DNA of 64,000 bases from Ricordea florida (taxonomy: Eukaryota; Cnidaria; Anthozoa; Corallimorpharia; Ricordeidae), in assembly GCA_949710005.1 (NCBI GenBank), contig OX453281.1, positions 29,629,839 through 29,693,838 of the forward strand, given 5' to 3'. Both the position numbers and the translations under genes were made by a program. This document shows, piece after piece, positions 2,541 through 64,000 of this stretch. The notes beneath the pieces were generated by a model. That model was not told the DNA's origin, did not search any database, and saw only the letters and a list, made by a program, of their open reading frames with translations. The stretch's first letter is position 1; each line of letters opens with the position of its first letter.

Positions 2541-2684
2541 TAGGCCTTTGCGTAGTAGCTTCCAGTCGATCAGCATCTTTCAGTCACAAACGGAAACCGT
2601 ATTCAAATATTTATGAGTGTCTGTTACTACTACAATTCAAATACTACTTCCGTGTTAAAGGAACAGTTCTTAATAATTTTGAAG

Positions 2685-3701
2685 ATGTTTTCACAAGAGA
2701 TAAATGACTCGAGTTCAAACAACAGCGATGAAATTCTCGAAGCGCACACGTGTTATTTCAGTCTTGGTTTCCGGGTTCCGCTCTCCATCTTATTTGTGGT
2801 TACGTTCGTGCTTTCTGTTGGTGAGAACATTTTGGTCTCGCTGGTCATTTTCTTCGACAAGAAACTTCGAAAACCTTCCAATGGTTACTTATTGAGCTTA
2901 GCAGTCACCGATATATGTAACTCCCTCAGTCTTATTCCCATGGAAATGACGTATATTTGGTGCTACCCACAGTGGCCACTAGGTTCGAAAGGAACAGATG
3001 TGCTGAACGCATTCTGGCTGTTCAGCCTCGTCACCCCGTTCATCACACTCCTGGTTATCAGCGTGGATCGTTTTAAGGCAGTCACCTCTCTTGTACGCTA
3101 TAGAGAGGTAATGTCTTGGTACAAAGCACTTGTATTTATCGTATTAGTGTGGGTATATTCAATTATGGTTGTGGTGCTAATGAGCGTATTTGCCTTTGAC
3201 GCCACAACGGGAGAGTCGTATGAATGGAATGTTAAATACCAATTTTACTATGGGTTTCTTGGATTGCATCTCGTTTTGCCGTTAATCATTATATGCATAC
3301 TTTACCGTACGATCTACCGACATGCTGTCATGAATCGGCGGGAACTGTCGGCGGTTCAAGGTCAGATACATTTAGGTGGCTCGGCCGAAGTGACAGAAAC
3401 AACGAGAGAAACTCGACTGGAAGTTAAAATGGCAAAGACTATTGCATTTGTTATTTTGTTTCTAGTCATTGTATGGATCCCAGTACTGATTCTAGAGGGC
3501 ATTTATGCCACAGAAAGCGAATCATGCGTTATTGAACAGTTGGGTGTGACCAGTGTCTGGCTGACATGCAGTAATGGAGTTGCTAATCCCATTGTTTACT
3601 CACTGAGAAACCCACATTTCAACAGAGCAATGAAACAACTTCTTCAATGCAGGAAGCCTAGGTCTAGAAATGCTAGTGAACGTAACAATGTCAGGGTGTG
3701 A
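2685..3701 (+). CDS. Rhodopsin-class GPCR, single exon, complete
   Basis: An open frame runs from 2613; I prefer the ATG at 2685 (338 residues) because it gives a short N-terminus with the glycosylation sequons NDS and NNS, as usual for these receptors. Seven hydrophobic segments are visible. TM1 is marked by GENILVSLVIF, TM2 by NGYLLSLAVTDI, the end of TM3 by SVDRF in place of DRY, TM6 by VIVWIPVLI and TM7 by NGVANPIVYSLRN. The residue 25 positions before the DRF arginine is threonine, so the usual TM3 disulfide cysteine is absent. The C-tail is short and basic with a cysteine (QLLQCRKPR) that could be palmitoylated. It lacks introns, like many cnidarian GPCRs. Ligand unknown. The stop is 84 bp from the stop codon of a convergent gene. 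Confidence 0.93.
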   Translation: MFSQEINDSSSNNSDEILEAHTCYFSLGFRVPLSILFVVTFVLSVGENILVSLVIFFDKKLRKPSNGYLLSLAVTDICNSLSLIPMEMTYIWCYPQWPLGSKGTDVLNAFWLFSLVTPFITLLVISVDRFKAVTSLVRYREVMSWYKALVFIVLVWVYSIMVVVLMSVFAFDATTGESYEWNVKYQFYYGFLGLHLVLPLIIICILYRTIYRHAVMNRRELSAVQGQIHLGGSAEVTETTRETRLEVKMAKTIAFVILFLVIVWIPVLILEGIYATESESCVIEQLGVTSVWLTCSNGVANPIVYSLRNPHFNRAMKQLLQCRKPRSRNASERNNVRV

Positions 3702-8574: not shown

Positions 8575-41288
<32,714 letters not shown>

Positions 41289-41608: not shown

Positions 41609-44600
41609 ATGTCTTCAAAGCAAACCGAACACGGTAAGTCATGTTCGAATTACGTTTTGAAAATAGACTCAGCCCAGCTGTGCACAGACAGCGGAATGAT
41701 TTCCGCACAGGTCCCTAATTCATTATGCATACTGTAGTCATACTGTTTCATTCTGCAATAACAAGAAATGTTTACATGTGCATTACCCTAAACAGTTCAT
41801 CTGCTGCATGCATAATGAAGTAGGTACCTGTGCGGAAATCTTGCCCGGACCGCAACTGGGCCTCTTTGATCTACCTCATTTGCATGCGTCTGAAAAACGC
41901 TAAGATTTCCGCACAGGTCCCTACTTCATTATGCATTCTGTAACTATACTATTTCGTTCTTCGAACACAAGAAATATTTGCACTGCACGTGCATTACACC
42001 AGACAAGACAGCTTCAGCATGCATAATGAGTAGGGACCTGTGCGGAAATCATTCTGTCAGTTCTGCTAAGAACAGTGCCCCCAAAAGGACTACGGTCTGC
42101 TGTGGATTTTTTGCCAAATCCAGACAAAGCAAATTATGAGTTTTTTTACTCTAAGGTGGCAACATGGCTGTGAGTAGTAACTGTTTCAAAGTTGTTCTTA
42201 TTGGAGATGCTAGAGTTGGGAAAACATGCCTCACAAAGGCACTAAAACATGATCCTGATTCCTGGGAGCTTCCAAAGAACTACAAACCAACAAATGGAGC
42301 CTGGATAACTTACTTTGATGTCTCCGATGCTTGCCGTCTTCTCATCTATGACACATCTGGAAGACAGGAGTTTAAATCACTTGTTCAACATTACTTGAAA
42401 CTATTACACTGCGTGGTTTTTGTTTTTGCCCTTGATGATTCATCAAGTTTTGAAAGACTCCATTATTGGCATGAAATTTTTAAGCAGGAATTTACAGGTG
42501 ACCCTACTAAAGTTTGTAAATTTGTCATTGGCACAAAGTTGGATTTAGCACGGTTTAACACTGAATTACAAACAAAAGCAACCTCCTTTGCTGAGGCATC
42601 AGGTGCTGAACTATGGGTGACATCTGCAGCTATGGCATTCAATGCCCATGAACTGTTTATAAGGATCTCTGAAAGTGCCATGAAAATGTTGCATGGATCC
42701 TTACGCTGGGTAGTGCCTCAGTATGCTTATTATCATGGCAATACAGGAGAGGAAAGGCCCACATTTTTGCTTGATGATAGTACCCTTGGGAAGGCTGTTC
42801 TGGTGAGATACCCTGATCCAATACTACTTGACACTGATGAAGTGCCAATCTCTAATATCGTCATGTGCTATCACTGTGTCGTGATGTCAGATGAAGATGG
42901 CAGAACATTCAAGTGGGGCACCTGGCATAATAGAAGGTATGCATTTACCATGACAACATAAAACAAGTAATGAACAGTTCCTTCCTACCAGCCTTTTTTA
43001 ACACTAATCAATTCCCTGTAGAATGCCTATATTTGGTACAATCGAAACTACCAGTATCTGTTATTTCATCACTGATGTAACCTAAACCTCATTTCAGTCA
43101 GTGTGATGCTACTGAAATCAATTCCAACCATTACAACTCTTTGATACATGTATGTAGTTTGCAGGAGGCAAAACTCCAGGAATGTCTATCCCCCAGAAAG
43201 AAAAATGCTCTGTGGTCATGTGTAATGTCACAGGCCCCAGCCAGCACATGGCAGCATGAGAATCTATCTGGTGAAACGGTTTTGGGTACAATGGTCAGGA
43301 GACAGCCCACAAAGACAAGACTTAAGGACTTTAAAAAGCTGTTCTTCAGTTCACGTGAGATCAAGTTTACTTGATTGTGATAAAGTTAAATCTTTTCACT
43401 TATAGCAAAAGATATGGTCAGATTTTTGTGATTGCTTTAAGTTTATCCCTTGAATGACTCTTCTTCATACCCCTTACCATGCATTCCCCATTAATATCAA
43501 TCTAGTATTTAATTCTCTTTTGATTTTATTGTTGTTTTTTTTTTCTTAGTTTCTTAACCATGTTATTTTATTATATGTATTGTTCCAAAAATGGGCATAA
43601 TGGACAAAATCTTTCTTTGTGAATAGCTTCCTTAGCTGGCAGTTTGAGGAATTTTCTTCTTTTTTTAGGATATCTTTTAGCTGCTATTGACCAAGCCTGT
43701 TAAGTCAAGATGGCTGAATATGGGTGGTGTTCTTTTTTCCTCTATTATTAAACTTTGGTTACATGTATTTTTGGTCCAATAAAAATGGAAAAATAAATGT
43801 AAGGTCAATATTCTGCTATTTTGACCTCAGGCTTGGTCATAAATAGATATTTGAAAGTAAACAACTTAATGCTGAAAATTATTTTCTTCTGGCTTGTCAC
43901 TGCTTTTAGGGAACTTAAATGGTAAAGAAGAGCCCAACCGCTTGTTTTATACACTGCTATTGACTGAGGAGGAAAGCCTCTTTGAATGTGGTCTGGATAG
44001 GTTAATGAACACCAGCAACATGGTAACAAAGCCTAGTGAGCAACGTACACTAATACAAAACCACTTTCACCTTGAACCAAAACAGCTCCCAGTTGATGGA
44101 AAAGTAACCTGTGTTAGTGTGTCAGAGAGTCATGCTGCCATTACTGTGGGCAGTGACAAAACTGTAATGACATGGGGTAATGGTCAGAATGGGGCCCTTG
44201 GGCTGGAGGAGCATTTGGTAACCAATTTCAACCCACCCTCCCCTCTCCCTGTGATATCACTAAACTGCAAGGTTGATCAAGTTGCTTGTGGTGTTGGCTT
44301 TACATTGATGTTGACTGCAGAGGGGCAAGTGTATTCATGTGGATCTGGTAAAATGGGAAAATTGGGTCATGGAGATGAGACAAACAGAATGCTACCAACT
44401 TTGGTAAGTTTTCATGTTACCTGTTATTTAATAGCTAATTAACAATAGTTATTAAATTCTTTTCCCCAGCTGGGAGGCAGTTCCAGAATGATAATACATG
44501 GTGATAAGAGAGCAGAGGAGTAATATTGCGTTGTCTCAGGCAAGGGGTGATGGCAACCTTTTGGACCACTCTCCCACTTCCCACTTCCATTCCCAAAATC

Positions 44601-47600
44601 ATTTTCACCATGTATCTCAGTGAATGATTTTCTTCTTATTTTGAATTTGGAGGACAATAGTTAGATGTTGAGTAAAAGGTAAATTAAGGTAAAGTAATAC
44701 ATGAATCAAGGGACAACATAGTGCTTGCTTATATGGTATTTAGGATTCTATATAACTACGTATAAGCCATCATAGATGAAAGGATGTCAGCTTTTAGATG
44801 CTCCATGTTTCATTGGATCTCTATGTTTATCTCATAGGGTCATTGTTTGTCTCTTTGCATTGTTTTTCACAACCTAGGTTGTATCCTATAGTGACACTAG
44901 AACATCAGACAGCTGAAAGATCCTTTGTTACTGGGTAACAGCCCCCTTAATTTTATTTCATACTTGTAACCAATAAAAGTTAGTTAAAGGCATGCAGTGT
45001 TGGTTTTATTATCTAGGGAAACAGCACAATCAAAAACCTCCAGACCTCTAGATCTGTTTCCCTATACGCACTATTTATTAATTCTGCTCTGAATGGTTTT
45101 CAACTAGTTATCTCTATTTGTTTTATCTTTCTTCAAAACTTAGATCAAAGATCTCACGTACATTCAAGCAATTGCGGCTGGGACTGAACATGCTCTTGCA
45201 TTAACCAACAAAGGTTCTCTTTACCACTGGGGTTTAGACTGTGGAGATGAAACCCTTGCTCGATTCACTGCCACACCCACTAGAGTTCAACAATTAGACA
45301 ATGTAGCTGTAAAAGCCATTTCTTGTGGTATGCATCATTCTGTCTGTCTAGCTAATGGTATTTGGTACTATGGAATTCCTTACACTTGGGGTAGAGGATC
45401 TCATGGACGCCTTGGCTTGGGTCATCTTAAAGGCTTATTCACACCTCGTTTTGTTCCAGAGTTCTATAACAAGGTTGTTACTGTTGTGCAAGTTTCAGCT
45501 GCAAGAAAGCACACTGGATTCTTAACGAAGGAAGGGGATGTGTACACCTGTGGAAATAATGATTGTGGGCAGCTGGGATATTTTACTGCATCAGGATATA
45601 GTGACATACCAGTCAAGGTGGACCTTAGTGGAAGTTTGGCTGCAGATGAGAGGTTAGTTCCAACATTGCTAAGAAAATGTTTGACAGAAGTTCTTATTTA
45701 GACAGATTAAATACGAATGAAATTAATTCCGGTGACATGAAACCTTATAGGTCAGATGGGACATTCCTTGCTGGCCCATCTATGCCCATTTCAAATATTG
45801 TACAGAATATACCGTACATAAACTTTTTACAGATCTGGAATAATTTTTGTGCCCTTAGTTCCCAGAGAGAGATTTTTGTTAGCAGCTCAATGGTGGGTAA
45901 GAATTTTGACCACACAACCTTGCAACTTAACCAGTCCAAGGGACAGAAACTGAGCTGAACTAGCCATCTATGCAAGACAACGTACCATTGATAATGATAA
46001 CGATGATAACAATAAGTTAGACAACAATGACAATTATAACCGTGACAGCAACCACAATGACAATGTTGATGAACATGGTGATGCTGATGATTGGTGATGG
46101 TGATGATTGGCCGGCATGTCCCTGAGTACATTTAGGAAGGAGAGCCTTTGAACTCTGAAAACTGTTTCCTCCTTAGGTTTATTTTGTCTTCTTTTATGTG
46201 GCTGAATAAAATTCTTAAGTTTCAATGCACAAGTCTCAAGGTACACCACACTTCATTTAGCCAGTGATTCTCATTTTGCAAATCTGTTTGTTCATTGCTA
46301 ACTAGCTTCTCCTTACTTGTTTCCAGAGCTACTGAAATATGCTGCCATGAGGACTACACCATGATTGCAACTGAGCAAGGAAATGTTGTAATATGGGGAA
46401 AGTGTTTCTACGGACCTAAAATTGATGAACCAGTGCCCATCAACAGAAGTGATGCTGGAAAGATGGTAGACTCCATTGCTGGAGCAGGGGACATTGTGGA
46501 TGTTACAACGTGCCATTTGCTGTGCAGTGATCCAGAAAAGTCAACCATTGAGCTCATCCTGGCATTAACAAGATGTAGTCACATGATGCTTTGTGCTGGG
46601 ATCACTGGTGACTGTGATTTCCAAGTTACCTTTGATTCCAACTCTCTTATTGCTTGTGACAGGCCAGACCTGGCAGCACTATCCTCTGTTGGATCTGTCT
46701 TGGTTGCCCTTGACAGCCACGGCAAATGTTACTTTACTAACATTTCTGATTGGGTCAAGTCATTACTAGGGGACACCAGTGTGTCACATGATCTTGTGCA
46801 TACACTTTTCTCTTCCCTCAAGCAAATGCATGCCACAAAGGTTTGTTTGCATAATGGTCTCATAGATTCCATTAAATTAAGCAGCTTAATTACACCGCAT
46901 ACAAAGTCCAATTTTATTTGTTCACACCACGACATTTGAGGCAGCTCTCTAAGGTGGAAAATCCTTTCTTGTTCAATCTGTCAAGGTGTGTTATAAGGTT
47001 CCTTTCTATATGATGCAGAAACAGGCTTTTCTCATATCTGTTAAATTCAGAAATGCAAGGATTTGATATTGATGTACTTATTCGTAGGTACCAAACATGC
47101 AGTTCAAACCCATTGATTCGCTTCCTGGACATGTAACCGCAGTTGAGACGACCCTGAGCTCATTTCTTTTTTCTACTGATATCGGTGACGTGTACAGCTG
47201 GTCTCCATTTTCAGGCGGACGTCTCCTTCACCACAGTGAATTAAATGGAGAAATTGTTACCCAGATTGCGTGCGGATCAAGCCATTTTGCAGCATTGACA
47301 GATGAAGGACTTTTATTCACGTGTGGGAATGGTTTGTCGGGTCAACTGGGTCATGGAAGTTTTGATTGGAATGTTGAGAAGTTCCAGCTTGTGTCATTGA
47401 CGAGGGTTCAACGAGTGCAAACTGTTTGTTGTGGATGGACAAGCACTGCTGTTCTCACACTGGATGGAAGGGTAATTTACCAGCTTAGTAGATGGGTTCT
47501 CAGTTCACTGTCGTAAAACCATTAGCATTCAGAACAGATGCACACAACCCCAGGAACCAATCTGAACTCAACGGAAATACATGTTGTTGGTACCTAGCAT

Positions 47601-50600
47601 GAAAAAACATCTGCGAACTGGTCATGTCTGATTTTAGTTTTACTTTTGATTGGTTAGAAAAGCTGCAATGCAAACCAAAGCAACTGCGCAATGACCTCCT
47701 ACAGTGAATTGAAAGGGGCCTTATGGCTACAATGGATAGTGACTTACATTGCACGAAGGAGCTGCTCCTTAGTTGTAATAGGGTAGACTTTATAGTCTCC
47801 TTACTAGTAAAATATTTGGGTTTTTCTTTTTGCTAAGAAGAGTTTTTCTTGCTGTGGTGACCAGGTGTTTTTCTGGGGTCAGTTGGACTTACCAAGAGGA
47901 GAGAAACGCCAAAGAAGATTTTTAAGTCTTGCCACCAGAGGAAGAACCTCCAACCTTGTACCAGCTCTTCGAAAAAACCAAGTTCAACAGAGGCCACCTT
48001 CCCCTGTGACATACAAAGTTGAGTTCATTGGGGATCAACTGGACCCTGATAAGCACTTGACCATTGTTGGAAAGCCATTTGTGTTTGAGATTGTTCCAAG
48101 GGATAAAAATGTCAGTAGAAGCTCCTGCATGGTGAGTAGAAGTAGTGTATTGTGTCATGTCATCCATATCATTGTGGTAAGTTATGTTTATTTATAAGCA
48201 CAGGAGGCCCATGGAGGAAGTGCTTATGTTGGATTCTGCAGCATGAAGCACCTATTGTTACTCCCCCGCTCCTGGATGAGATGTTAGTCTATGCACCTGG
48301 GTAGGGAGAGAGAGGGAAAGTGTGGGTGGTGTTTTACGTAATATCAAACACCTCAGAGATGTCAATCAACCAAGATCTAGTTGAGTTAAGTACGTACTGT
48401 GACAATCCTAAAAAGCAGAAGTCCAGTCATCACTAGAACAGCTTCTCTTCCCAAAAGTATGTGAAACGTTTAGTTTGACTGTACGCTCTTGAAGAACGAG
48501 TCATTTAACATGTCGTTTAACGCCTAAGTTTGATTTCATGGGAGTAGACTCAACTCAACCCAGGTGGATATGGATAAGAAAAAATCCCCTACTCTTCTGA
48601 TTTTCATCTCTCTTTATGGTGTTTCGTATTTGGTCAAGTGACATGTTTTCTTGTGTATTACGTATTACCCCACCCCCTTAGTTGTTCATCCCTATATTGT
48701 GATTGCTTCATGTAAAGGAATTCAGAGTTGAGGCCATGAGAATACCAGATTCTCTTCAAGTTAATTTCAAGGGGAAGATCAAGCAATGCCAGAAATCTAC
48801 TGGTTCCTACAGGGCTTCCATAAATTTCCATTCAGAGGGTGTTTACAAAGTTTTTGTGACCAGAAATGGTGACCACATTCTTGGAAGCCCCTTCAGAGTC
48901 CATGCAGAGAATGGCACGCAAGTTTCCAGGATGAAAGTATCGCTGATTGGCTGTGACGTAGAGTGTGTTAGAGCCGTGGGTGGTGTTCTCCAGCAGGTGA
49001 TAAATGCCAATGATCTGGGAATCGAACTGTGGGGTATCCCCAGTATTATAACTGAACTGCCAACGTTTGAGGCATACATACTTGCCTCCATAACTGATGG
49101 TGGGATTTTTGTCTATGTTTGGGATGCTACTTGTAACACCCTGTCTGAGCAGAATCTCAACTACTGGCTGCATCTCCTCAAAATGCGTGCTCCCTCTTCT
49201 GAAGTCATAATCTTGGGAATCAACTGTAGTTCTTCGTATGCTAATGAGTTAGATTTGAGGCCACTCCAGAACGCCAATCCCAGATTGACACGAGCCATTT
49301 TTGCTGGAACATCAGATTTGGCAGGGGTGTTAGAGGAAGTTCATTGCATGGGACACAACACTGAATGGCATCAAAATCTGGTATGGCATAGATTTGCAAG
49401 CTTTGCCTCAAAGGTGGAACAAATGAAGAAGAGAGGAGTCGAGATAATCGATGAGCACAGCTTGAAATGTTTGGCTGGAGAATGTGGTATTCATGGGGAT
49501 ACCATATGTAAAGAGGCAGTTGACCTCCTTCAGTTTCTAGGGCTTGGTCTTGTAATTGGGAGAGATCACCCCTTTCTCATGATTCATCCTAATTGGCTGC
49601 TTCGTCATCTGACTGAAATGTCCAGATCAAGTCATCATGGAATCCTGGACCTACGTACTATTGGTACAGTATAAACAGTTTGCTATTCACCTTGGTAGGC
49701 CAAAGACAAAGCACAGAAGCTAGTGTAACTATCAATTCATGCAACATATACACCTAATTTAGAATTTTGTGCATCAATAAATGCAAAGAAATTGTAAAAA
49801 ATGCGTGACTGATTATATATGTTCTACCATTTTTATCACATCTCAGAATCATAACAATAACTGTAGCCCTCGGGCTTCACCTTAAAATGTTTTGCTGGTC
49901 CGTTTAGAAGGACTGTTTCTTTTTTGCCGTATGCCAAACTTTGAGGGCCTCAGATCCAGCAATGCAAAATCTTGTGACAACTAAAATTTATTCAAGTAGG
50001 CTTTTTCAACATTGAGCTTGATGTGTCTTGCTAAAAGGTCAAGATGTATTTCTTAGCTGGACCAAACATAACACATACTTTTGTTGCAATATCTACAGAT
50101 TCACCAATGCAGCAAGAAATTGCGGAATTATTGGTTGAAAAGGGTGTGGCCATAAGAAGACGTGACAGTATTACGATGGACATCTTTCCTTTCCTGTGTG
50201 CAAGACCTGTGGAAAACTGGCCATCTGTAGCTGCGTCACAGTACACAGTCTACAGACATCTTGTTCTATCCAGGCCTCCATTTCATCTCCATTCTATTTT
50301 CCAGAATCTAGCATCAAATGTCGTACGATTATACGATGTCGTTGCGCTGGGAAAATTCACTATCGTTGTCCACGCTGAGGGATATGATGCACGTATTGAT
50401 GTTGGCCCTTGTGCTATCAACAAATCTCTCTCAGAGATCAGGGTTGCTGTGCGTGCCACTACACAGGACTATTGCACTGCAGCTGTTGAACCAATCATGG
50501 CCCAGCTTTCTAGGTTCCTTGTCATGTTTTTCCAGCCCGATGATTTCATAGTGAAGTTATCGTGTAATGTCTGTCGACAGCAGTACTTTGATCTTTCAGA

Positions 50601-52375
50601 CGTGCAGAGAATGGCGGATGAAGGAACGATCCATCTGAAATGTACAAAATGTGGTGAAAGTAAGGTAAATGTCAGTGAACTCTTAAGTGGATTCAAGGAA
50701 ACATGTCCCCCACAGGAATTGCAATGGAGTCCTTTCTATCAAACACCCAAACAAGGTATTACTCTATTTTTGCAGTTGTTTGTTCTTCTGTGCGGCGATA
50801 CATTTTGACCGAACACTCGCCAACAATTAAAGTAGCTTTTAAATTTAATCTGTTTTGCGAGCCTCAGTCAACCATTTCTAATGGATTAATTCATTTGAGT
50901 ATGGCCTCCACAGTGTTGCCCAGTTGACCCTGATTTTATTTTGGCCATTTGAAATTAAACAGGGAGTGCCCAGCTTGGCCCAGACACGCCCTCATCTCAG
51001 TATTTGTTGCACCCTTTGATGAGGTACTTCAGTGATGGGGAAGAACGGCAGGCCAGAACAATCCGACGTGAGATTCAGGAAATCAAAGAAACGATAAGAA
51101 ACATGGCAAAGGTCTTTGCAGATACAAAATTTGTAAGTAATATCTAAACCATAAGAGGTGTCTAATAAGTACCTTTGCTGGTATAACTGTTCTTTTGATG
51201 ACAGACTTACTGCTCAGAAGGTGAGCTGTTTAGGTTTCCATGTTGTTTTACTTATTTTCTCTTACTCATTGATAATGTATAAGTAAAAAGAAAGGAAATC
51301 AGGAACCTGTTTGGTAACCTGATGAAACGTCTCGTTTATGCATATTATATTTCTTCTTTTGACGTTTCAAACACTCAATTCATATATACAGTTGAAACGC
51401 CTAGCGCAAATTTTATCAAAATAGTTCCAACCAATTGATATGTAATGAGACACGGCATCTCATGTTGGATATACTACTTAATTACAAGATGCAGTGTTCC
51501 CATCATGCAGAAGGGTGCTGTTATGCCAGTTGATAACAAAAACAATGATACATAATGTAATGATAATCACTTCAGAAATTTAGTTTACAGCATTGCAGGC
51601 CAAAATTATGCAATTCACTGCTGCCTACCTTCTGTACTATCTATCATTTACTTTTAGTACACGACTCCCCGTACCGTCTGTCTTTTACCCGAAATCCAGA
51701 AGTCGTCTATTCTCAGATCAGACGCCGTTAGAATGCTGTTGACCTGGGGTAAACCCAAATATCGATTGTTTCTTTTGTGCGAGGGAAATGGCGATGGAAC
51801 AGGAGTTCATTTTCTGGACACCAAAAAGCACAAGGGATATCTGCTGGAGACCCGTGTGGCTGCTGATCTCATCTCAAACAGTGTCAACCTTCTGCGGCTT
51901 GCATTGCAAGTATGCATAATTATTTTTTTCTCAAGCATCTCAGCGGGCCGGAATCCCAAATCCTCGAATCTGATTGGCTAATCGTGCGCTCGTAACCGGT
52001 CCAGCTTTTTACGATACGGACCACGGTCCGGATTTTTATCCGCGCTATTAGTGGCAAATTGAAATTGTTGCGAAAAAAAAAGCAAACAAACAGAAAAAAT
52101 AAATAAGTTATTTACCGGTCTAGGTCGGTCCATATGGGAAAAAGCTCTGCCCTTGGTCTTGAGTACTCAAGACCTCGGGCACAGTTTTTTCCCATACGGA
52201 CCTCCCGCCCGGTAAATAACATGTATATATTTCCTCTTGAACATGTTCAACATTGCGATCTTTTTTTATGGCATTTATAGAGTGTAGTTTAGCCCAAAGG
52301 GGGGGGGGTACTGCCATATATGGGCTGTATAGGCATGTACTGCTGTGAAGGGTGTGGTTTTCCAGCAGTTTACTT

Positions 52376-52407
<32 letters not shown>

Positions 52408-54565
52408 CCTAGAATAGGGTATCATTTTTCACAAAATTTGCCATTTGGTTGAAGATTTTATGTAGACTAAGGAAATCAGCAATTGACTCTCAAAAATATA
52501 TAAAAATGAAATTGGCAAGTTCAAATTTTCGCAACTCAGCCTCAACAGCATCGATAGATGATTATCATAAAACACTACTTGATATTGTTAACTGTCAAAA
52601 ATCGGGATGCAGACGAAAATTGGTGGTTTTAATACTGGTTAAAATCAACAATGTGTATGTGTGTACTTGAAAAAAAAAACTGAACAAGTATAAATCTTTT
52701 CTTTTTTGAGAGAGATATGATTGTGGTATAAGGTTTTGTTTTGGCTAGGACTGTGCTAGTGACCTCAGTTTCTGGAAAACGACTACTCTAGGATAGGAGT
52801 GATTTGGGGGGTTTACTCTAGTATAGGGCAGCAAAATTCAGCTGAACCAGCTCTGGTATTGAAGGGCTCCAGAGTTCCAGCGGCGCATCCCCACCCAGAA
52901 ATTCCTAAAGTACCCCCCCCGGGGGGGGGGGTTTAGCGTGGCGTTGGCATATCAAAGGGGTGCACTTATATGGTTAAAACATTTTATAGAGACCGCCTAA
53001 GGTACTTCCGAGTCTTGTAGATGCCAAGGGCAGTCCTTCTGACAGGGTGCGGGAAAAAAGAAAATTGTGCGGGTTTTGGGAGGCAAATTGTGCGGTAAAA
53101 AACGGCGATTGTGCGGGATTGCGCAATCTTGTAAACAAACAAATATTCGATCATCGGGCCCAAAAAAACCGACGTGGAGGAATTTCTGGATAAATGAAAA
53201 GTGCAACAACTCCCCTCTTAGTTTGGCAATTAAAAATGAACGAAATTTCTATTTTGCTACAACTTTGGCCAAAGTTTGTATCAACAAAATCATGTTGCGT
53301 AACACGATCGATTAAGTTTATTCAAAACCGTAATTCCCGGGCGTAATTCCGCTTCGAAATAAAATGCTTTCGACCAGAACAAGTTACTTTATGAAAAATC
53401 CCAACATTTTTGTACTTTCTTTGATATGTGGAGAATATTAATATATTATCTCGTGAAGGTTTAAAACTCTTCACGCTGCAAAAACCGCAACACCAAGACA
53501 AGATTAGACGGAGACTAGTGCCCAGGCCGCCACGGAGCTATGAAGAGCCGCCTTGTTGTTTTTATATCCGCTCGAGCTGTTCAATCGCGGAAAGCGGCGG
53601 ATTTCTCGATTGTTTTGCTATGTAAATAGCCTAAAAAGTTTCTTTAAACCTTGGCAATCGATGGGAATACTGATTTAATTAGATTTTTTACCAAATCTTT
53701 CCATATTGTGCGGGATTTCGCGGATTTTCAGAGATTGTGCGTCTTTGATCGAATTGTGCGGTCCCGCACCCGCGCACCCTGTCAGAAGGTCTGCAAGGGT
53801 GAATTGTTTTTAGCTGTATGTTTCATATACAATTTTATCCCTTTAGATTTTGATTGCATCGTCAGTTGGCATTAATGCAATACGTGCCCTTGGATATCTC
53901 AACGTTGTAGAATGGGAGATGCTGAACAACCTACTTGGTACTATTGGCTTGAGTGGAGCCATACTGAGTCAAGTGCCGTGGAAAAGTCACTTTAAAGAGG
54001 TTTGTTACAAAAATGATCATCCTTGGAAAGTTCTCATTAAACACACCGCTTCAAGCAACTCTTGTGAAGTTGATGTGGAATGAATCGTTTGTTAGTTGCA
54101 AGTTATATGTGTTTGTTGTCACTTTTGTACCTATGTTGTTTAGAAATCTTACTTGTGATGGTTGTGAGTATCAGATGTATTGATTCTAAGTTATGCATGT
54201 TATTTGTTAGCATTACATGTGTTAATTGCAAGCACTGCATGTGTTGGTTGTAAGTATTAAGTGTGTTTTAATAATTATGTGCATCCTTATCCTGGCAGAT
54301 GGATAAATTTCTGAAAACTTTCCAGGAAACTGCCAAATCCATTCCACAACCCAAGGAGCTGAGTAAGTTATCAAGCCCGTGCCAGGGATACCAAGTCGGT
54401 GGTGAGAGCTACCATCACTTACGGGAATTGTTAACCAAATTCAAATCCAAAGATAATTTTGGTGGGTTGAGGCAAGAACCCCATGAGGGGGTGGGAGCTA
54501 TTTGGGTGTGTGAAAAACACAGTATTCATAATAACTCAAACAATCCGATCAAGGTCATGCCATAA
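41609..54565 (+). CDS. Roco-like protein: Ras/Rab GTPase, RCC1 repeats, filamin repeat, pseudo-Roc, COR
   Basis: Fourteen exons with GT-AG borders and matching phases: 41609-41633, 42156-42936, 43098-43354, 43910-44403, 45144-45652, 46327-46840, 47088-47471, 47865-48131, 48718-49668, 50038-50755, 50963-51132, 51658-51909, 53847-53999, 54299-54565. They sum to 5742 bases (1913 aa). Domains in order: small GTPase (about residues 17-185), RCC1 repeats (about 380-1005), filamin-type Ig (about 1036-1143), degenerate Roc (about 1149-1290), COR (about 1295-1575), CxxC pairs (1570-1599), and a tail with IWVCEKH. Roco proteins use COR to dimerise and couple to Roc nucleotide state; RCC1 folds can act as exchange factors. 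Thus the RCC1 part may regulate the N-terminal GTPase (inference). No kinase domain is seen. Weakest junction is the end of exon 9 (gtataa chosen for phase). The first ATG could instead be 42164. Confidence 0.88.
41698..41840. mobile_element. Palindromic MITE, family 1, copy B (diverged)
   Basis: GATTTCCGCACAGGTCCCTA at the left end and its inverse at the right. It is the most diverged of four copies and lies in intron 1 of the Roco-like gene. Confidence 0.8.
41904..42050. mobile_element. Palindromic MITE, family 1, copy C
   Basis: Nearly identical to copies A and D. It lies 64 bp after copy B and about 105 bp before exon 2 of the Roco-like gene. Confidence 0.9.
42156..43354 (+). other. N-terminal small-GTPase exons of the Roco-like gene
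   Basis: Exons 2 and 3. P-loop GDARVGKT (residues 24-31), switch I YKPTNGAWI with the conserved threonine, G3 DTSGRQEF, G4 GTKLDL and G5 TSAA are all present, so nucleotide binding is likely. The catalytic glutamine position after DxxG is arginine, followed by Q. No C-terminal prenylation site follows because the chain continues. Exon 3 adds a basic segment (RRQPTKTRLKDFKKLF). An upstream reading of exon 3 as a separate 77-codon gene is wrong: it splices into both neighbours in phase. Confidence 0.9.
43910..48131 (+). other. RCC1-repeat exons of the Roco-like gene
   Basis: Exons 4-8. Repeats show the RCC1 pattern of G/A-rich contact, then a V-x-x-WG strand: TVMTWGNGQNGALGL, QVYSCGSGKMGKLGHG, SLYHWG, YTWGRGSHGRLGLGH, DVYTCGNNDCGQLGY, NVVIWGKC, LLFTCGNGLSGQLGHG, RVFFWGQL. 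At least eight blade-like units are visible, so one seven-bladed propeller plus extra blades, or two diverged propellers. The second half of exon 6 is diverged. Exon 8 also starts the filamin repeat. Confidence 0.88.
45985..46110. repeat. Degenerate GAT/GAC trinucleotide tract
   Basis: GATAACGATGATAAC through GATGGTGATGATTGG. Intronic. Confidence 0.75.
48718..50755 (+). other. Filamin end, pseudo-Roc and COR exons of the Roco-like gene
   Basis: Exon 9 opens with the end of a filamin Ig repeat (YKVFVTRNGDHILGSPFRV). It is followed by MKVSLIGCDVECVRAVGG, where a Roc P-loop GxxxxGKT would be expected but K and T are missing. Later Roc elements persist: VYVWDAT, YWLHLLKMRAPSSEVIILG and FAGTSD. 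The COR domain starts near WHQNLVWHRF and includes AVDLLQFLGLGLVIG and FLMIHPNWLLRHL. Exon 10 continues with COR-B and ends with CNVC and CTKC, a likely zinc ribbon. Confidence 0.85.
51935..52220. mobile_element. Compound inverted-repeat element, copy 2
   Basis: AGCGGGCCGGAATCC...GATTGGCTAATC is followed by the GTTATTTACCGG palindrome (52107-52220), i.e. the mirror order of 33289-33600. It begins about 25 bp after exon 12 of the Roco-like gene. Confidence 0.8.
52297..52931. mobile_element. G-tract-bounded repeat (ATATGGGCTGTATAGGCATG)
   Basis: Starts GGGGGGGGTACTGCCATATATGGG and ends GTACCCCCCCCGGG. It shares internal GTGTGGTTTTCCAGC and ATAGGGTAT words with 61950-62370. Confidence 0.7.
53030..53794. 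mobile_element. ~765-bp inverted-repeat DNA element
   Basis: GCAGTCCTTCTGACAGGGTG at the left is mirrored at the right by CACCCTGTCAGAAGGTCTGC, with sub-terminal GTGCGGGATT repeats on both sides. No intact transposase. It ends about 50 bp upstream of exon 13 of the Roco-like gene. Confidence 0.85.
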
Positions 54566-55938: not shown

Positions 55939-56641
55939 GCGTGTTGCTGGCCTGAGGTTTCAGCGTGTAGTGCTGCTGCAGTAGCACGTTGCTGGCCTGA
56001 GGTTTCAGCGTGTAGTGCTGCTGCAGTAGCACGTTGCTGGCCAAGGTTTCAGCGTGTAGTGCTGCAGCAGTAGCACGTTGCTGGCCTGAGGTTACAGCTC
56101 ATAGTGCTGCTGCAGTAGCACGTTGCTGGCCAAGGTTACAGCTCGTAGTGCTGCAGCAGTAGCACGTTGCTGGCCTGAGGTTACAGCTCGTAGTGCTGCC
56201 GCAGTAGCACGTTGCTGGCCAAGGTTACAGCTCGTAGTGCTGCAGCAGTAGCACGTTGCTGGCCTGAGGTTTCAGTGTGTAGTGCTGCTGCAGTAGCACG
56301 TTGCTGGCCTGAGGTTTCAGCGTGTAGTGCTGCTGCAGTAGCACGTTGCTGGCCTGAGGTTTCAGCTTGTAGTGCTGCTGCAGTAGCACGTTGCTGGCCT
56401 GAGGTTACAGCTCGTAGTGCTGCTGCAGTAGCACGTTGCTGGCCTGAGGTTTCAGCTCATAGTGCTGCTGCAGTAGCACGTTGCTGGCCTGAGGTTTCAG
56501 CGTGTAGTGCTGCTGCAGTAGCACGTTGCTGGCCTGAGGTTTCAGCGTGTAGTGCTGCCGCAGTAGCACGTTGCTGGCCTGAGGTTACAGCTCGTAGTGC
56601 TGCTGCAGTAGCACGTTGCTGGCCAAGGTTACAGCTCATAG
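55939..56641. repeat. 45-bp minisatellite, ~15 copies with 43-bp variants
   Basis: The unit is GTAGTGCTGCTGCAGTAGCA plus CGTTGCTGGCCTGAGG plus TTTCAGCGT. Some units read GGCCAAGGTTACAGC and are 2 bp shorter. Both strands are open (AAAVARCWPEVS-like frame), but low complexity argues against coding. Confidence 0.95.
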
Positions 56642-57537: not shown

Positions 57538-60500
57538 TTAATTTGCGCCTTCGAATGCTACAGCTGATTCGGCTCTTACAAAGAACGGACCTTCGCGTTC
57601 ATATTCACGTAACCGCAAGTGATATGGCTTGTCGAACACTTCTTTGGAAAATGGAGAATGCACCAGCTCAGCTATCAGCTCGTACTTGTATTCCTTACCC
57701 ATCTTGTTAGTTTCTGTCTTTCGGTCCAACAAATATTCAAGGAAACCTACAGAACCAGTATTAACCAGAACATCAGAAAAGATTTCTTCTGTTTGTGGTG
57801 AACTTTATTGGAACCCTTTTCACAGCCAACACTTACCATCTGTGGTTGAGAAAGGGTTGTCAATATTTTGAACTGTGAAGGCAGCCCTGGGGGAGGGGGG
57901 TGGGGGAGCTCCAATAAAAAATGATAGGTAATGACATTAATTGAACATTGCAGTTATGTAGCTGTGTTAAAGCCTGAAAAAAAAACTCAGGCCTGAACGG
58001 GATTTGAACCCATGACCTCTGCGATACCAGAGCAGTGCTCTACCAACTGAGCGCTGCTTAAGTTGTGTACATAACCACGATGATCAATTAATGTCATTAC
58101 ATATTACTCTGCAGTTCAAATATATGGTCTTTCGCATGTTCATTTGCGTCATTCTTCTCCATCTACGGGTATATTATGAACCCACAATATGACCAGCTCC
58201 CAGTTGGCTTTATAGCTCAGTTGGTAGAGCACTGCTCCGGTATCGCAGAGATCACGGGTTTGAATCCCATTCAGGCCTGAGTTTTTTTCAGGCTTTAATT
58301 TCACAGCTGCTCAAGTTGTGTAAATAACTGCGATGATCAATTAATGTCATAACACATTACCCTGCAGTTCAAATATATGGTCTTTCATATATTCATTTGC
58401 ATCAAAAAATGACAGGGTTGCTTGTCGAAAATTTCAAAAAACACAGCGCAATCATCATGATATTTTCAACTTGTTTTGTTTTTTGTTTTTAGTCGGAGAT
58501 TTTTGGATGACTCATGAACGTGGACAGAGGCGGCCAAAAATTCAGTGATTAAAAACAAAAAGCTTAAAACTAGTGGTAACCACAGGTTAGAAAGTGCAGG
58601 CCTAGATGCACTTAAGGGAAAGTACGGGGACGAGAGTGTATAATTTTAAATTGCAAAATACATTCCTGTGAACGTGGACAGAGGCCGCCAAAAATTCAGT
58701 GATCAAAAACAAAAAGCTTACAAATATGTTGGTGATTGTGGGGTGCTTTTTGAAAATTACCAACATGCATCCTCAACATTTTCATTGCTCCCCACCCCCC
58801 CCCCCCCACAAAAAAAAGCCAACAGGAAGCTAAAAGTATGTCCACAACTAATCGTCAAAGAGTGCATGACATCAAGATAACCAAGAAAGAAAATTGACCT
58901 GACCTGGACAAGTCGTCATTTCCTGTTGCACCCACTTGTACTTAGCAAGACTTCTTAGCACTGTCAGTACCGTACAACGAACATCTTCAAAAGGTTGCCT
59001 GGCAATCTCCATTAAGACCTGAAGAGGGTTAGAAGCCATAGCACTGAAGAGCATCTTTACAAATGCTGACAAATCCTCTGAAGGGACATCAGAGGAGTGG
59101 AAAATGGTTGCCAGTGCCTCAAGCGATCTGATCCTTACATCAGCTTCAGGGGATCTGATATTAGTGCATAATGTGCCCATAACTTCTTCATTTCTTGCCT
59201 TGTTATCAAAGACAACATGCAGGCCTGACTCAGAATGTGCCAGTACACCAATGGTTTGAATTGCAATCAACTTCAGAGTTTGGTCACTTGATGTCAGAAA
59301 AGAGAAAACATTCTGAAGGAAGAGAGGGTACTGACGTGCCACTTCTGATGGGTGTGACTGGGCCAGGTAACCAAAGAACTTGATAACACCTACATATGAT
59401 GGACAGTATAAAAGATAGTTTGATGATTAAGCATTTTCTTTTTTGGACATAATTTAATGCTATGCTGGTTTGAAATAATGAATGTATGATGGACGGTATA
59501 AAAGATAGTTTGATGATCAAGCATTTTCTTTTTTGGACATAATTTAATGCTATGCTGGTTTGAAATAATGAATGTATGATGGACAGTATAAAAGATATTA
59601 TGGGGATAGTTTCTAAAGAAACTGGTGCTGCGTCGGTGGGAAATTGAAACACAAGAAATTGGCTAAATCAAACGAGTTGATTAAGTAAGTTATACCACCG
59701 TAAGGTAAAAGGGAGGTGCTGACGTTTTAAGCGTTAGCCCTTCGTCGGAGCACCTCCCTTTTACCTTACGGTGGTATAACTTACTTAATCAACTCGTTTG
59801 ATTTAGCCAATTTCTTGAGTGTAAAAGATAGTTTGATGATTAAGCAATTTCTTTTTTTGGACATAATTTATTGCTATGCTGGTTTGGAATAATGATTGTA
59901 ATTTAAACAGTTACAATTCACAAACCCAAATTTTGACACTCCTGTCTGGTGTTTTCTTCAGGGGTTTTAAACCAGCCAAGCATCAAACTATGTCTGATTG
60001 TCCACCAGGTGGCAATGTGCACATTCCCTTTAGCTATTTTCTTTTATCTTTGTTTAGTTTTTAATCAACCTCAATTGGATCTTTGATTTAGAGAGTTCAA
60101 GAAAAGTTATGCTTTCAGAGGCTCATTATCATTTCTGAAGGGCCATTATGTAGTCTTCTTACTAAAAACAAACTAAACCTTGAATATAAATAAATTAAAA
60201 AATAAAAAAAAAATAATAAAGTTGTCTGATAATTTTGATTTGCCCTGCCAATGCCACATAGAATTGTGTGACATTTTAGTGCTAAATTCGGTAAGATTTC
60301 CGCACAGGTCCCTACTTCATTATGTATTCTGTAACTATACTATTTCATTCTTCGAACACAAGAAATATTTGCACATGCATTACACCAGACAAGACAGCTT
60401 CAGCATGCATAATAAAGTAGGGACCTGTGCGGAAATCATTCCCTAAATTCTTCCTACATACAGTGGACTGACTGCCTTATAACACGTGCCTGTCTACCAG

Positions 60501-61424
60501 TTAGAGAATTTGACAAACAATCATCAAATCCTTGTAAAAATATGCACAGATATATCTAATATATAATATATATATTATTACATATTATCAACAAGTCTTA
60601 CTTGGTAGCATTAAAGACATCATTGGGTCTGCATCACCGCTTCTTAACAGATTGTCTAGCTTTGCTATCATGCCACTTTCCTCCAGATAACTCAATCCAT
60701 TTCTTCCTGATCCGGCTATCTGAGTGAGCAGCTCGATACAGTTCAGACGAAGAAGAACATCATCCCCATCCAGCTCTTCTACTAGCTTGTCTAACACTAC
60801 AGATTTACGACACGCTAGATATGCTATTTCGGACAAAGCTTGAATGTTTACCATTAGTTCAAAAACCCGAAAACGAATGACATCTTTCTTTAAAAGTAGT
60901 TCACCCAGTTCGCTTTGTATCTGATGTTCAAAAAACACCTCAAGGCCTGAATCAAGTTTTGCAGCGTTAGTCAGAGTGTTCATAGCTAACTTGGCGCATG
61001 TGAGATTCTCATCTCCGATGGCGCGTGCAGTGTACACCAGAATATCTACATTGTCCAACAGCGCGAGTAGCCCATTCATACTTGACGAACATCTCTCCAG
61101 CTCACCCAAACAAAGTTCACGAACATCAAACAACGGATGATTCAAGCCTTCGATTACAAAATCGCGGTAGTGAGTGATGACTTTGTCAGCTTTTTCAATG
61201 GACAAAAGCTTCTTTAAAATGGCTTTGCACAACAAAACTTGTTCTTCGTTTTTCGTATTTAAGCACCGAAAAAGCCAATGCGCTGGGATGTTAGGTGCTA
61301 ATTCACGCAGACTAAAGGAGGGGCTGTTGAGTAGGGCGGCGAGCTCCTGCAAAGCAACCAACAGTGCTGGTCCAGTTGACGTTGAAATCTTCTCCACAAT
61401 CTTGTCACACTTTTCAGCCGCCAT
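57538..61424 (-). CDS. PSMD5: PSMD5, 26S proteasome assembly chaperone (S5b), three exons
   Basis: PSMD5 is a HEAT/ARM-type chaperone that binds the Rpt1-Rpt2-Rpn1 module during 19S assembly and inhibits premature assembly. Exons in coding order are 60602-61424, 58904-59389 and 57538-57746; phases are 1 and 1, and the total of 1518 bases gives 505 aa against about 504 in human. Signatures: KAILKKLLSIEKADKV near the N-terminus, VIKFFGYLAQSHP at the start of exon 2, and FLEYLLDRKTE, LRLREYEREGPFFV and AVAFEGAN at the end, the last matching the conserved VEGA-type C-terminus. The start MAAEKCDK is the first Met after in-frame non-coding sequence. The gene is much less intron-rich than its vertebrate orthologues. 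Introns hold tRNA-like repeats, a perfect palindrome and a MITE. Confidence 0.95.
57985..58140 (-). repeat. tRNA-like repeat, inverted copy 1
   Basis: The minus strand keeps a D arm (GCTCAGTTGGTAGAGC), an anticodon arm with loop CTGGTAT (GGT, Thr-like), and GGGTTCAAATCCC. A 7-bp acceptor stem does not pair, so it is a tRNA-derived repeat and not a working tRNA. Confidence 0.8.
58180..58400 (+). repeat. tRNA-like repeat, inverted copy 2
   Basis: TAGCTCAGTTGGTAGAGC, loop CCGGTAT and GGGTTTGAATCCC, followed by the unit GCTCAAGTTGTGTAAATAAC and CAATTAATGTCAT, which also flanks copy 1. The tRNA-like parts face opposite ways while the flanks run in the same direction. Confidence 0.8.
59398..59910. 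repeat. 90-bp tandem repeat, three units, third one interrupted
   Basis: GATGGACAGTATAAAAGATA at 59398, 59488 and 59578. The third stops near 59597 and resumes at about 59820 after a palindromic insertion. Confidence 0.85.
59652..59817. mobile_element. Palindrome with 69-bp perfect arms
   Basis: 59652-59720 is the exact reverse complement of 59749-59817, with a 28-bp spacer (GACG...CGTC at its edges). It contains the words TTATACCACCGTAAGG and CGTTAGCCCTTCGTC. A shorter relative is at 14788-14830. It is intronic in PSMD5. Confidence 0.95.
60294..60437. mobile_element. Palindromic MITE, family 1, copy D
   Basis: GATTTCCGCACAGGTCCCTA through GACCTGTGCGGAAATC. Intronic in PSMD5, about 165 bp from exon 1. 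Confidence 0.9.
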
Positions 61425-61544
61425 CTTTACTTCAATGAGCCCTCGGTTGGCAAGAACGTCATGCTAGCCCACATATAAGGCACTATTATCGTAAACATAC
61501 TATATGTATATATACACGAAGTAATAAATGCACCTACCTCCACT

Positions 61545-61885
61545 AACACTCACCTTCCTTCACTCGTACTCACTTTCCTTCACTTGTACTCACTTTCCTT
61601 CACTTGTACTCACTTACCTTCACTTGTACTCACTTTCCTTCACTCGTACTCACTTACCTTCACTTGTACTCACTTTCCTTCACTTGTACTCACTTTCCTT
61701 CACTTGTGCTCACTGTCCCTCACTCGTACTCACTTACCTTCACTTGTACTCACTTTCCTTCACTTGTACTCACTTACCTTCACTTGTACTCACTTTCCTT
61801 CACTCGTACTCACTTACCTTCACTTGTACTCACTTTCCTTCACTTGTACTCACTTTCCTTCACTTGTACTCACTTACCTTACTTA
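61545..61885. repeat. 20-bp minisatellite, ~17 copies
   Basis: CACTTGTACTCACTTTCCTT with variants CTCGT and CTTAC. All three plus frames are open since no stop occurs in the unit; not coding. Confidence 0.95.
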
Positions 61886-63747: not shown

Positions 63748-64000
63748 GTTTGTGGCAAGATGACCTGTTGGTGGCAAGATGACCTGTTGGTGGCATGATG
63801 ACCTGTTGGTGGCATGATGACCTGTTGGTGGCAAGATGACCTATTAGTGGCAAGATGACCTGTTGGTGGCAAGATGACCTGTTGGTGGCAAGATGACCTG
63901 TTGGTGGCAAGATGGCCTGTTGGTGGCATGATGACCTGTTGGTGGCAAGATGACCTGTTAGTGGCAAGATGACCTGTTGGTGGCAAGATGACCTGTTGGT
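63748..64000. repeat. 19-bp minisatellite running off the window
   Basis: GATGACCTGTTGGTGGCAA repeated at least 13 times with A/T alternation in GGCAA/GGCAT. It continues past the end. Confidence 0.95.

Follow-up and report, generated by a model that had tools for sequence, protein, structure and literature searches.

It was LRRK2 that brought Roco proteins to wide attention, and how they work remains a matter of debate; the passages on classification in PMC6337361 divide them into groups with LRRs only, with LRRs plus a kinase, and with a death domain. According to the portion of PMC11378527 on domain architecture, up to forty combinations of domains with Roco occur in animals, and an unusual one is thus no surprise by itself. 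Degenerate G domains occur elsewhere too: in p190RhoGAP, as described in the excerpt of PMC5593906, pseudoGTPase domains form part of a larger chain that begins with a GTPase. Here we describe a gene of Ricordea florida, found in a window of 64,000 nucleotides (the whole stretch of DNA that was analysed), that encodes in order a Rab-like GTPase domain, RCC1 repeats, a filamin Ig domain, a predicted degenerate Roc, a COR and a C-terminal region of about 295 aa. On the basis of gene structure, domain order, conservation, the predicted COR fold and the state of the GTPase motifs, we favour, with a probability of roughly 0.55, a scaffold that is built on COR, is probably intracellular and would have its sole GTP site in the Rab-like domain.

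The coding gene lies on the plus strand at 41609..54565 and is defined by GT-AG introns, an open frame and colinear homologues. It has 14 exons, at 41609-41633, 42156-42936, 43158-43354, 43910-44403, 45144-45652, 46327-46840, 47088-47471, 47865-48131, 48718-49663, 50099-50755, 50963-51132, 51658-51909, 53847-53999 and 54299-54565. The start codon is the ATG at 41609 and the stop codon the TAA at 54563-54565, exactly the limits given in the original prediction, and the coding span of 12,957 nt includes 13 introns with GT donors (13/13) and AG acceptors (13/13). Exon phases fit throughout and yield a single open frame of 1871 aa. The earlier claim of one phase-consistent gene therefore stood, and its length of 1913 aa proved slightly high. 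The same order of domains had also been predicted (GTPase, RCC1, filamin Ig, a Roc-like domain, COR), and it is upheld by Pfam together with the predicted fold of COR. An intermediate model of 1885 aa, on which the Pfam scan of the whole chain was run, has the same residue numbers upstream of exon 10. Two other splice sites were rejected: a start of exon 10 at 50057, which adds 14 residues opposite a gap in 4/4 relatives and was replaced by 50099, and an end of exon 2 at the earlier GTGAGA near 42800, which loses an F-WGTW segment present in the 3 relatives covering that part. A tblastn search of the window with the model (E ≤ 1e-3) found no second copy of the gene, and five off-register rows fall inside the RCC1 part of the same gene.

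Intron 1 contains a repeated sequence. The window has five copies of the 14-mer CGCACAGGTCCCTA, at 41704, 41910 and 60301 on the plus strand and at 42031 and 60418 on the minus strand, and the regions around it (41704-42045 and 60301-60431) have in common the peptide reading FPHRSLLHY.FCNYTISFFEHKKYLH. Because of the repeated 14-mer and the common reading, these regions look like a dispersed inverted-repeat element, one copy of which would lie in intron 1. The window also contains long tandem arrays at 13018-13748 (period 39), 27395-27920 (period 51), 31645-32243 (period 42), 55943-56636 (period 45), 61548-61884 (period 20) and 63748-64000 (period 19), and the long ORFs that such arrays create are probably meaningless. 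A minus-strand neighbour at 57541-61463, which we take to be PSMD5-like, has strong matches to Proteasom_PSMB (26S non-ATPase subunit) in three ORFs. On the plus strand, ORFs of rhodopsin-type GPCRs lie at 1-843, cut by the window edge, and at 2559-3698 (7tm_1, 85.5 and 139.7 bits, respectively), and a minus-strand ORF at 36983-37291 matches DUF4455 with 46.4 bits and is perhaps an exon of a CCDC180-like gene.

When the full-length chain was compared with a protein collection, 242 sequences matched at E ≤ 0.001, 120 of them listed. Among the matches listed, four extend along the chain: LOC144666360 of Oculina patagonica (P0001; 1864 aa, covering 99% of the query at 52% identity), LOC111329287 of Stylophora pistillata (P0002; 1853 aa, 47% over 100%), an 1843-aa sequence on a 5770-nt contig (P0003; 48% over 99%) and a 1489-aa sequence on a 7350-nt contig (P0004; 45% over 81%). 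The remaining matches listed cover 9-39% of the query, through RCC1 repeats as far as their Pfam entries were read. In a multiple alignment the four homologues are colinear and 47-53% identical to the query (Oculina 53%, Stylophora 49%). Oculina and Stylophora are stony corals (Scleractinia), and both of their proteins carry the name 'uncharacterized' and the label 'isoform X1' at NCBI, with no function in the names. The ORF of P0004 starts inside the RCC1 part, where exon 4 lies in the query, so that neither the GTPase nor the first of the RCC1 repeats is included; either this ORF is truncated or the protein exists naturally in a short form that has no GTPase.

Wherever the relatives cover an exon junction they align across it (P0004 only from exon 4 on), and the chain is therefore not a chance joining of ORFs. 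P0003 is an uninterrupted ORF of 1843 aa on its contig, in contrast to the coding span of 12,957 nt with 13 introns in Ricordea florida, and we infer that this contig is an assembled transcript; it makes a single mRNA for the whole chain likely and is the strongest evidence for it. A wrong joining of two neighbours, a Rab-RCC1 gene and a filamin-COR gene, would find some room in the indirect nature of the transcript evidence for one chain, which comes from the sequences of relatives, but two NCBI coral proteins and the one uninterrupted ORF span 99-100% of the chain and exon phases connect all along the gene. This explanation is barely credible, and we treat an origin of the exons from two genes as ruled out by the full-length homologues. 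By these alignments the gene is real and conserved in at least two coral genera, Oculina and Stylophora.

The Rab-like GTPase domain occupies aa 16-190 (42176..42700, plus strand), within exon 2, and was identified by Pfam Ras, PDB profile matches and motifs. Pfam Ras scores 75.6 bits over aa 20-183 (cut-off 21.6), and the motifs read GDARVGKT (G1), DTSGRQEF (G3), TKLD (G4) and TSA (G5). All four, as GxxxxGKT, DxSG, TKxD and TSA, are kept in 4/4 sequences that include the domain, which bears out the Ras/Rab-like N-terminal GTPase that had been predicted. The domain is 53-61% identical to its relatives. It also lies over the Pfam Roc cut-off (63.6 bits over aa 20-138, cut-off 27). A four-sequence profile of the domain gave 383 PDB matches at E ≤ 1e-12, the best 60 of which are all Rab or Ypt, with Rab7-type proteins on top, and judged by these profiles we assign the domain to the Rab type and not to Roc. 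A Rab is a stand-alone protein with C-terminal prenylation cysteines. Here the domain stands at the N terminus of a chain of 1871 aa, which ends in PIKVMP, without C-terminal cysteines, and we therefore speak of a Rab-like domain and not of a Rab.

In the four sequences DxSG is followed by R, K, K and M, respectively. Classic Ras and Rab proteins usually have Gln at this position, and LRRK2 has Arg there, in switch II. Because R, K or M replaces the usual Gln, the Rab-like domain would probably hydrolyse GTP slowly on its own, although a non-Gln residue is no proof of this. The same substitutions, found in 4/4 sequences, would also suit a domain that binds GTP and never hydrolyses it, making the protein a permanently 'on' scaffold; but in some GTPases hydrolysis relies on residues other than Gln or on a partner GAP. 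The model for such a state would be the Rnd family, which the excerpt of PMC5593906 cites as nucleotide-binding and without catalytic activity. On balance we think a permanently 'on' domain distinctly unlikely.

Next in the chain come RCC1-type repeats (aa ~246-985, exons 2-8, 42866..47915, plus strand), recognized by Pfam, a blade profile and PDB matches. The Pfam RCC1-like domain (WD40_RLD) scores 270.2 bits (cut-off 150) and the Pfam RCC1 repeat 176.9 bits (cut-off 21.7) in six stretches. We also built a blade profile from six blades of the same protein family; it recovered those six as strong blades, by construction, and added two weaker blades (aa 420-433, aa 672-694) and three fainter blades (aa 248-264, 348-364 and 864-878). 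A divergent stretch lies near aa 700-860. The predicted 'at least eight' RCC1 units is a fair count, made up of the six strong and two weaker blades, with the fainter ones in addition. Compared with the PDB, aa 349-985 of the propeller (the first blades were left out) matched 35 sequences at E ≤ 0.001. UVR8 and HERC2 stood on top, at E 9e-42 to 4e-40 (UVR8 9e-42, HERC2 1.6e-40), and HERC1, RPGR and then RCC2 and RCC1 ranked lower, the last two at about 1e-26 (RCC1 7e-26). By this ranking the propeller is nearer to UVR8 and HERC2 than to RCC1 and is not especially RCC1-like.

RCC1 is the exchange factor of Ran, and the propeller of the coral protein comes directly after the Rab-like domain. Both facts would suit a propeller that promotes nucleotide exchange on the N-terminal GTPase of its own chain, one of the two roles (exchange factor or scaffold) put forward in the original prediction, as would the activity of HERC1 on ARF proteins and, going by reference titles, on Rab proteins too (PMC6692442, excerpt). 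However, according to the same excerpt neither GEF nor GRF activity has been reported for HERC2, which together with UVR8 leads the PDB relatives, and the blades adjoining the GTPase are among the most degenerate. Since the propeller resembles UVR8 and HERC2 more than RCC1, which ranks well lower, the proposal of exchange in cis is not supported, and we consider it quite doubtful.

Between the propeller and the Roc position lies a filamin-type Ig domain (aa ~1017-1120, exons 8-9, 48009..48906, plus strand). Consistent with the earlier assignment, Pfam Filamin scores 29.7 bits, over the cut-off of 26.9. The filamin profile is matched by 4/5 members at E ≤ 0.01, and the Foldseek rows for the exon 9 model include filamin-type structures (probability 0.69-0.99, E 0.16-0.34).

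The second GTPase-like domain, a predicted degenerate Roc (aa ~1128-1268, exon 9, 48928..49350, plus strand), was examined by motif scan, PDB profile and Foldseek. In the motif scan, the P-loop (G1) and [NT]KxD (G4) were absent from 5/5 sequences, and DxxG was present in 1/5, as DLAG near the end of the domain and not at switch II. Scanning the five members of the alignment from Roc through COR to the C-terminal region gave no Pfam Roc match for this domain at E ≤ 1. A PDB profile search at E ≤ 10 gave 17 rows, the ten best of which belong to just two proteins, LRRK1 and LRRK2, at marginal E values of 0.047-0.09, and we take these matches to fall at their Roc domains. Foldseek, queried with a low-confidence model of exon 9 built from 5 sequences (mean pLDDT 46.7), placed structures of Roc-COR or LRRK2 in its first five rows (E 2.5e-3 to 4e-2, none ≤ 0.001, TM ~0.2). 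Because G1 and G4 are missing in 5/5, we regard the domain as a predicted pseudoGTPase, a Roc by position whose Roc fold is weakly supported. Thus, of the two GTPase-like domains in the original prediction, the N-terminal one stands and the second does not stand as a working switch; a second working GTPase was rejected for want of a P-loop in 5/5. Recent duplication of one G domain into two was rejected as well, as a profile comparison gave a probability of 0.3%, with thin profiles (Neff under 2). Despite the loss of G1 and G4, the domain is 48-59% identical to its relatives, about as well conserved as the GTPase, which suggests that it has a retained role.

COR follows directly, and its limits, assigned here, are approximate: the winged-helix half, COR-A, lies in exons 9-10 (49384..50214, plus strand) and the dimerisation half, COR-B, in exon 10 (50236..50709, plus strand). 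COR-B scored 13.3 and 15.3 bits in Pfam, under the cut-off of 27, and in a scan of five members COR-B and COR-A were each matched in 2/5 (best E 0.018 and 0.12, respectively). The predicted fold of exon 10 is clearly that of COR: Foldseek gave 15 matches at E ≤ 0.001, every one of them a structure of a Roco protein or an LRRK, so that the predicted presence of COR is borne out by its modelled structure although Pfam stays below the cut-off. COR-A and COR-B are 37-50% identical to their relatives. A CxxC...CxxC pair in COR-B (50563-50652), present in 5/5 sequences, suggests a metal-binding knuckle. The well-conserved C-terminal region covers about 295 aa of exons 10-14 (50710..54562, plus strand). 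It has no Pfam family over the cut-off, with a match to CDO_I below it, and its 50-56% identity to 4 relatives is nearly at the level of the GTPase; conserved stretches include YRLFLLCEG.GDG.GVH and FGGL.QEP.

How might these parts work together? In the scaffold reading that we favour, COR would hold two chains together. Dimerisation through COR has been shown for bacterial Roco, according to passages in PMC6337361, and with the predicted fold this makes dimerisation of the coral chain, which the original prediction had also assumed, a reasonable inference. The apparently dead yet well-conserved Roc region could be a structural or docking piece, by analogy with p190RhoGAP, in which deleting the pseudoGTPase domains lowers RhoGAP activity (PMC5593906, excerpt). 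The Rab-like domain would be the single nucleotide-binding site and would alone carry out GTP switching. GTP binding might uncover or mask surfaces of the RCC1 propeller and of the filamin domain, two candidate sites for the binding of partner proteins.

A different relation between the two G domains is conceivable, in which the Rab-like domain replaces the dead Roc and docks on the core of COR and pseudo-Roc, within the chain or across the dimer; the protein would then be a Roco with its G domain moved to the N terminus. Such a move would fit the loss of G1 and G4 from the second domain in 5/5 sequences alongside the keeping of the Rab-like motifs in 4/4, the Pfam Roc match of the N-terminal domain (63.6 bits) and the DTSGR of the Ricordea florida sequence, which resembles the basic residue in switch II of LRRK2. 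By contrast, the PDB profile ranking makes the N-terminal domain Rab-like, and the two halves have no similarity to one another at the profile probability of 0.3%, as far as profiles with an Neff under 2 can tell. We judge transplantation of this kind unlikely. A related reading, in which Roc has lost its nucleotide site and the Rab-like domain of the same chain drives the COR dimer, is rather unlikely. The propeller and the filamin domain separate the Rab-like domain from COR, and LRRK2 meets Rab proteins as separate partners, as in the Rab29-LRRK2 and Rab12-LRRK2 structures among the exon 10 matches. If it were true, the chain would contain its own Rab-like partner and provide a natural fused test of the talk between Rab and Roc-COR.

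In the open-licence PMC literature we found no description of a Rab-RCC1-filamin-COR protein or of a Roco with RCC1 in cnidarians, and no joint description of a pseudoGTPase with Roc-COR or of a COR domain with an RCC1 repeat. In passages of three related papers, RCC1 occurs in a reference title only (PMC6337361), RCC1 proteins figure as candidate Ran exchange factors separately from the Roco passages (PMC8923023), and the text on Nematostella LRRK2 does not mention RCC1 (PMC10659525). The coral domain order may be among the forty combinations counted in the portion of PMC11378527 cited above. The protein matters because COR is kept, the nucleotide motifs of Roc are lost and a Rab-like G domain is present in the same chain, so that their roles would be separated by a natural experiment; it may also be worth studying in corals, whose versions of it bear 'uncharacterized' labels.

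Compared with known systems, the coral protein is a conserved rearrangement of an LRRK2-related Roco theme. As in LRRK1, LRRK2, MFHAS1 and the Roco of C. tepidum, a COR fold follows a Roc-positioned region just upstream, but this region lacks G1 and G4 in 5/5 sequences, and because a Roc with GTP-binding motifs is missing we file the protein as Roco-related rather than as a Roco GTPase. Groups 1 and 2 of Roco proteins have LRRs before Roc, and group 2 a kinase; a Pfam scan of the full chain at E ≤ 1 matched neither LRR nor ankyrin nor kinase profiles. In front of its Roc-positioned region the chain carries instead the Rab-like domain, the RCC1 propeller and filamin, and behind COR a region without a Pfam family. 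Rab7, Rab33B and Rab1 have a similar G domain and similar motifs, whereas the coral domain is embedded at the N terminus of a large protein, has a non-Gln residue after DxSG and belongs to a chain that ends in KVMP without C-terminal cysteines. RCC1-type blades are common to the propellers of UVR8, HERC1, HERC2, RPGR and RCC1, but the coral propeller sits between a GTPase and COR and has a divergent middle. p190RhoGAP, with its N-terminal GTPase domain and degenerate G domains further on, offers a functional likeness only, as it has FF and RhoGAP domains and the excerpt of PMC5593906 mentions neither COR nor RCC1. The closest counterparts are the coral homologues LOC144666360 (Oculina patagonica) and LOC111329287 (Stylophora pistillata), which are full-length and colinear and differ by sequence divergence only.
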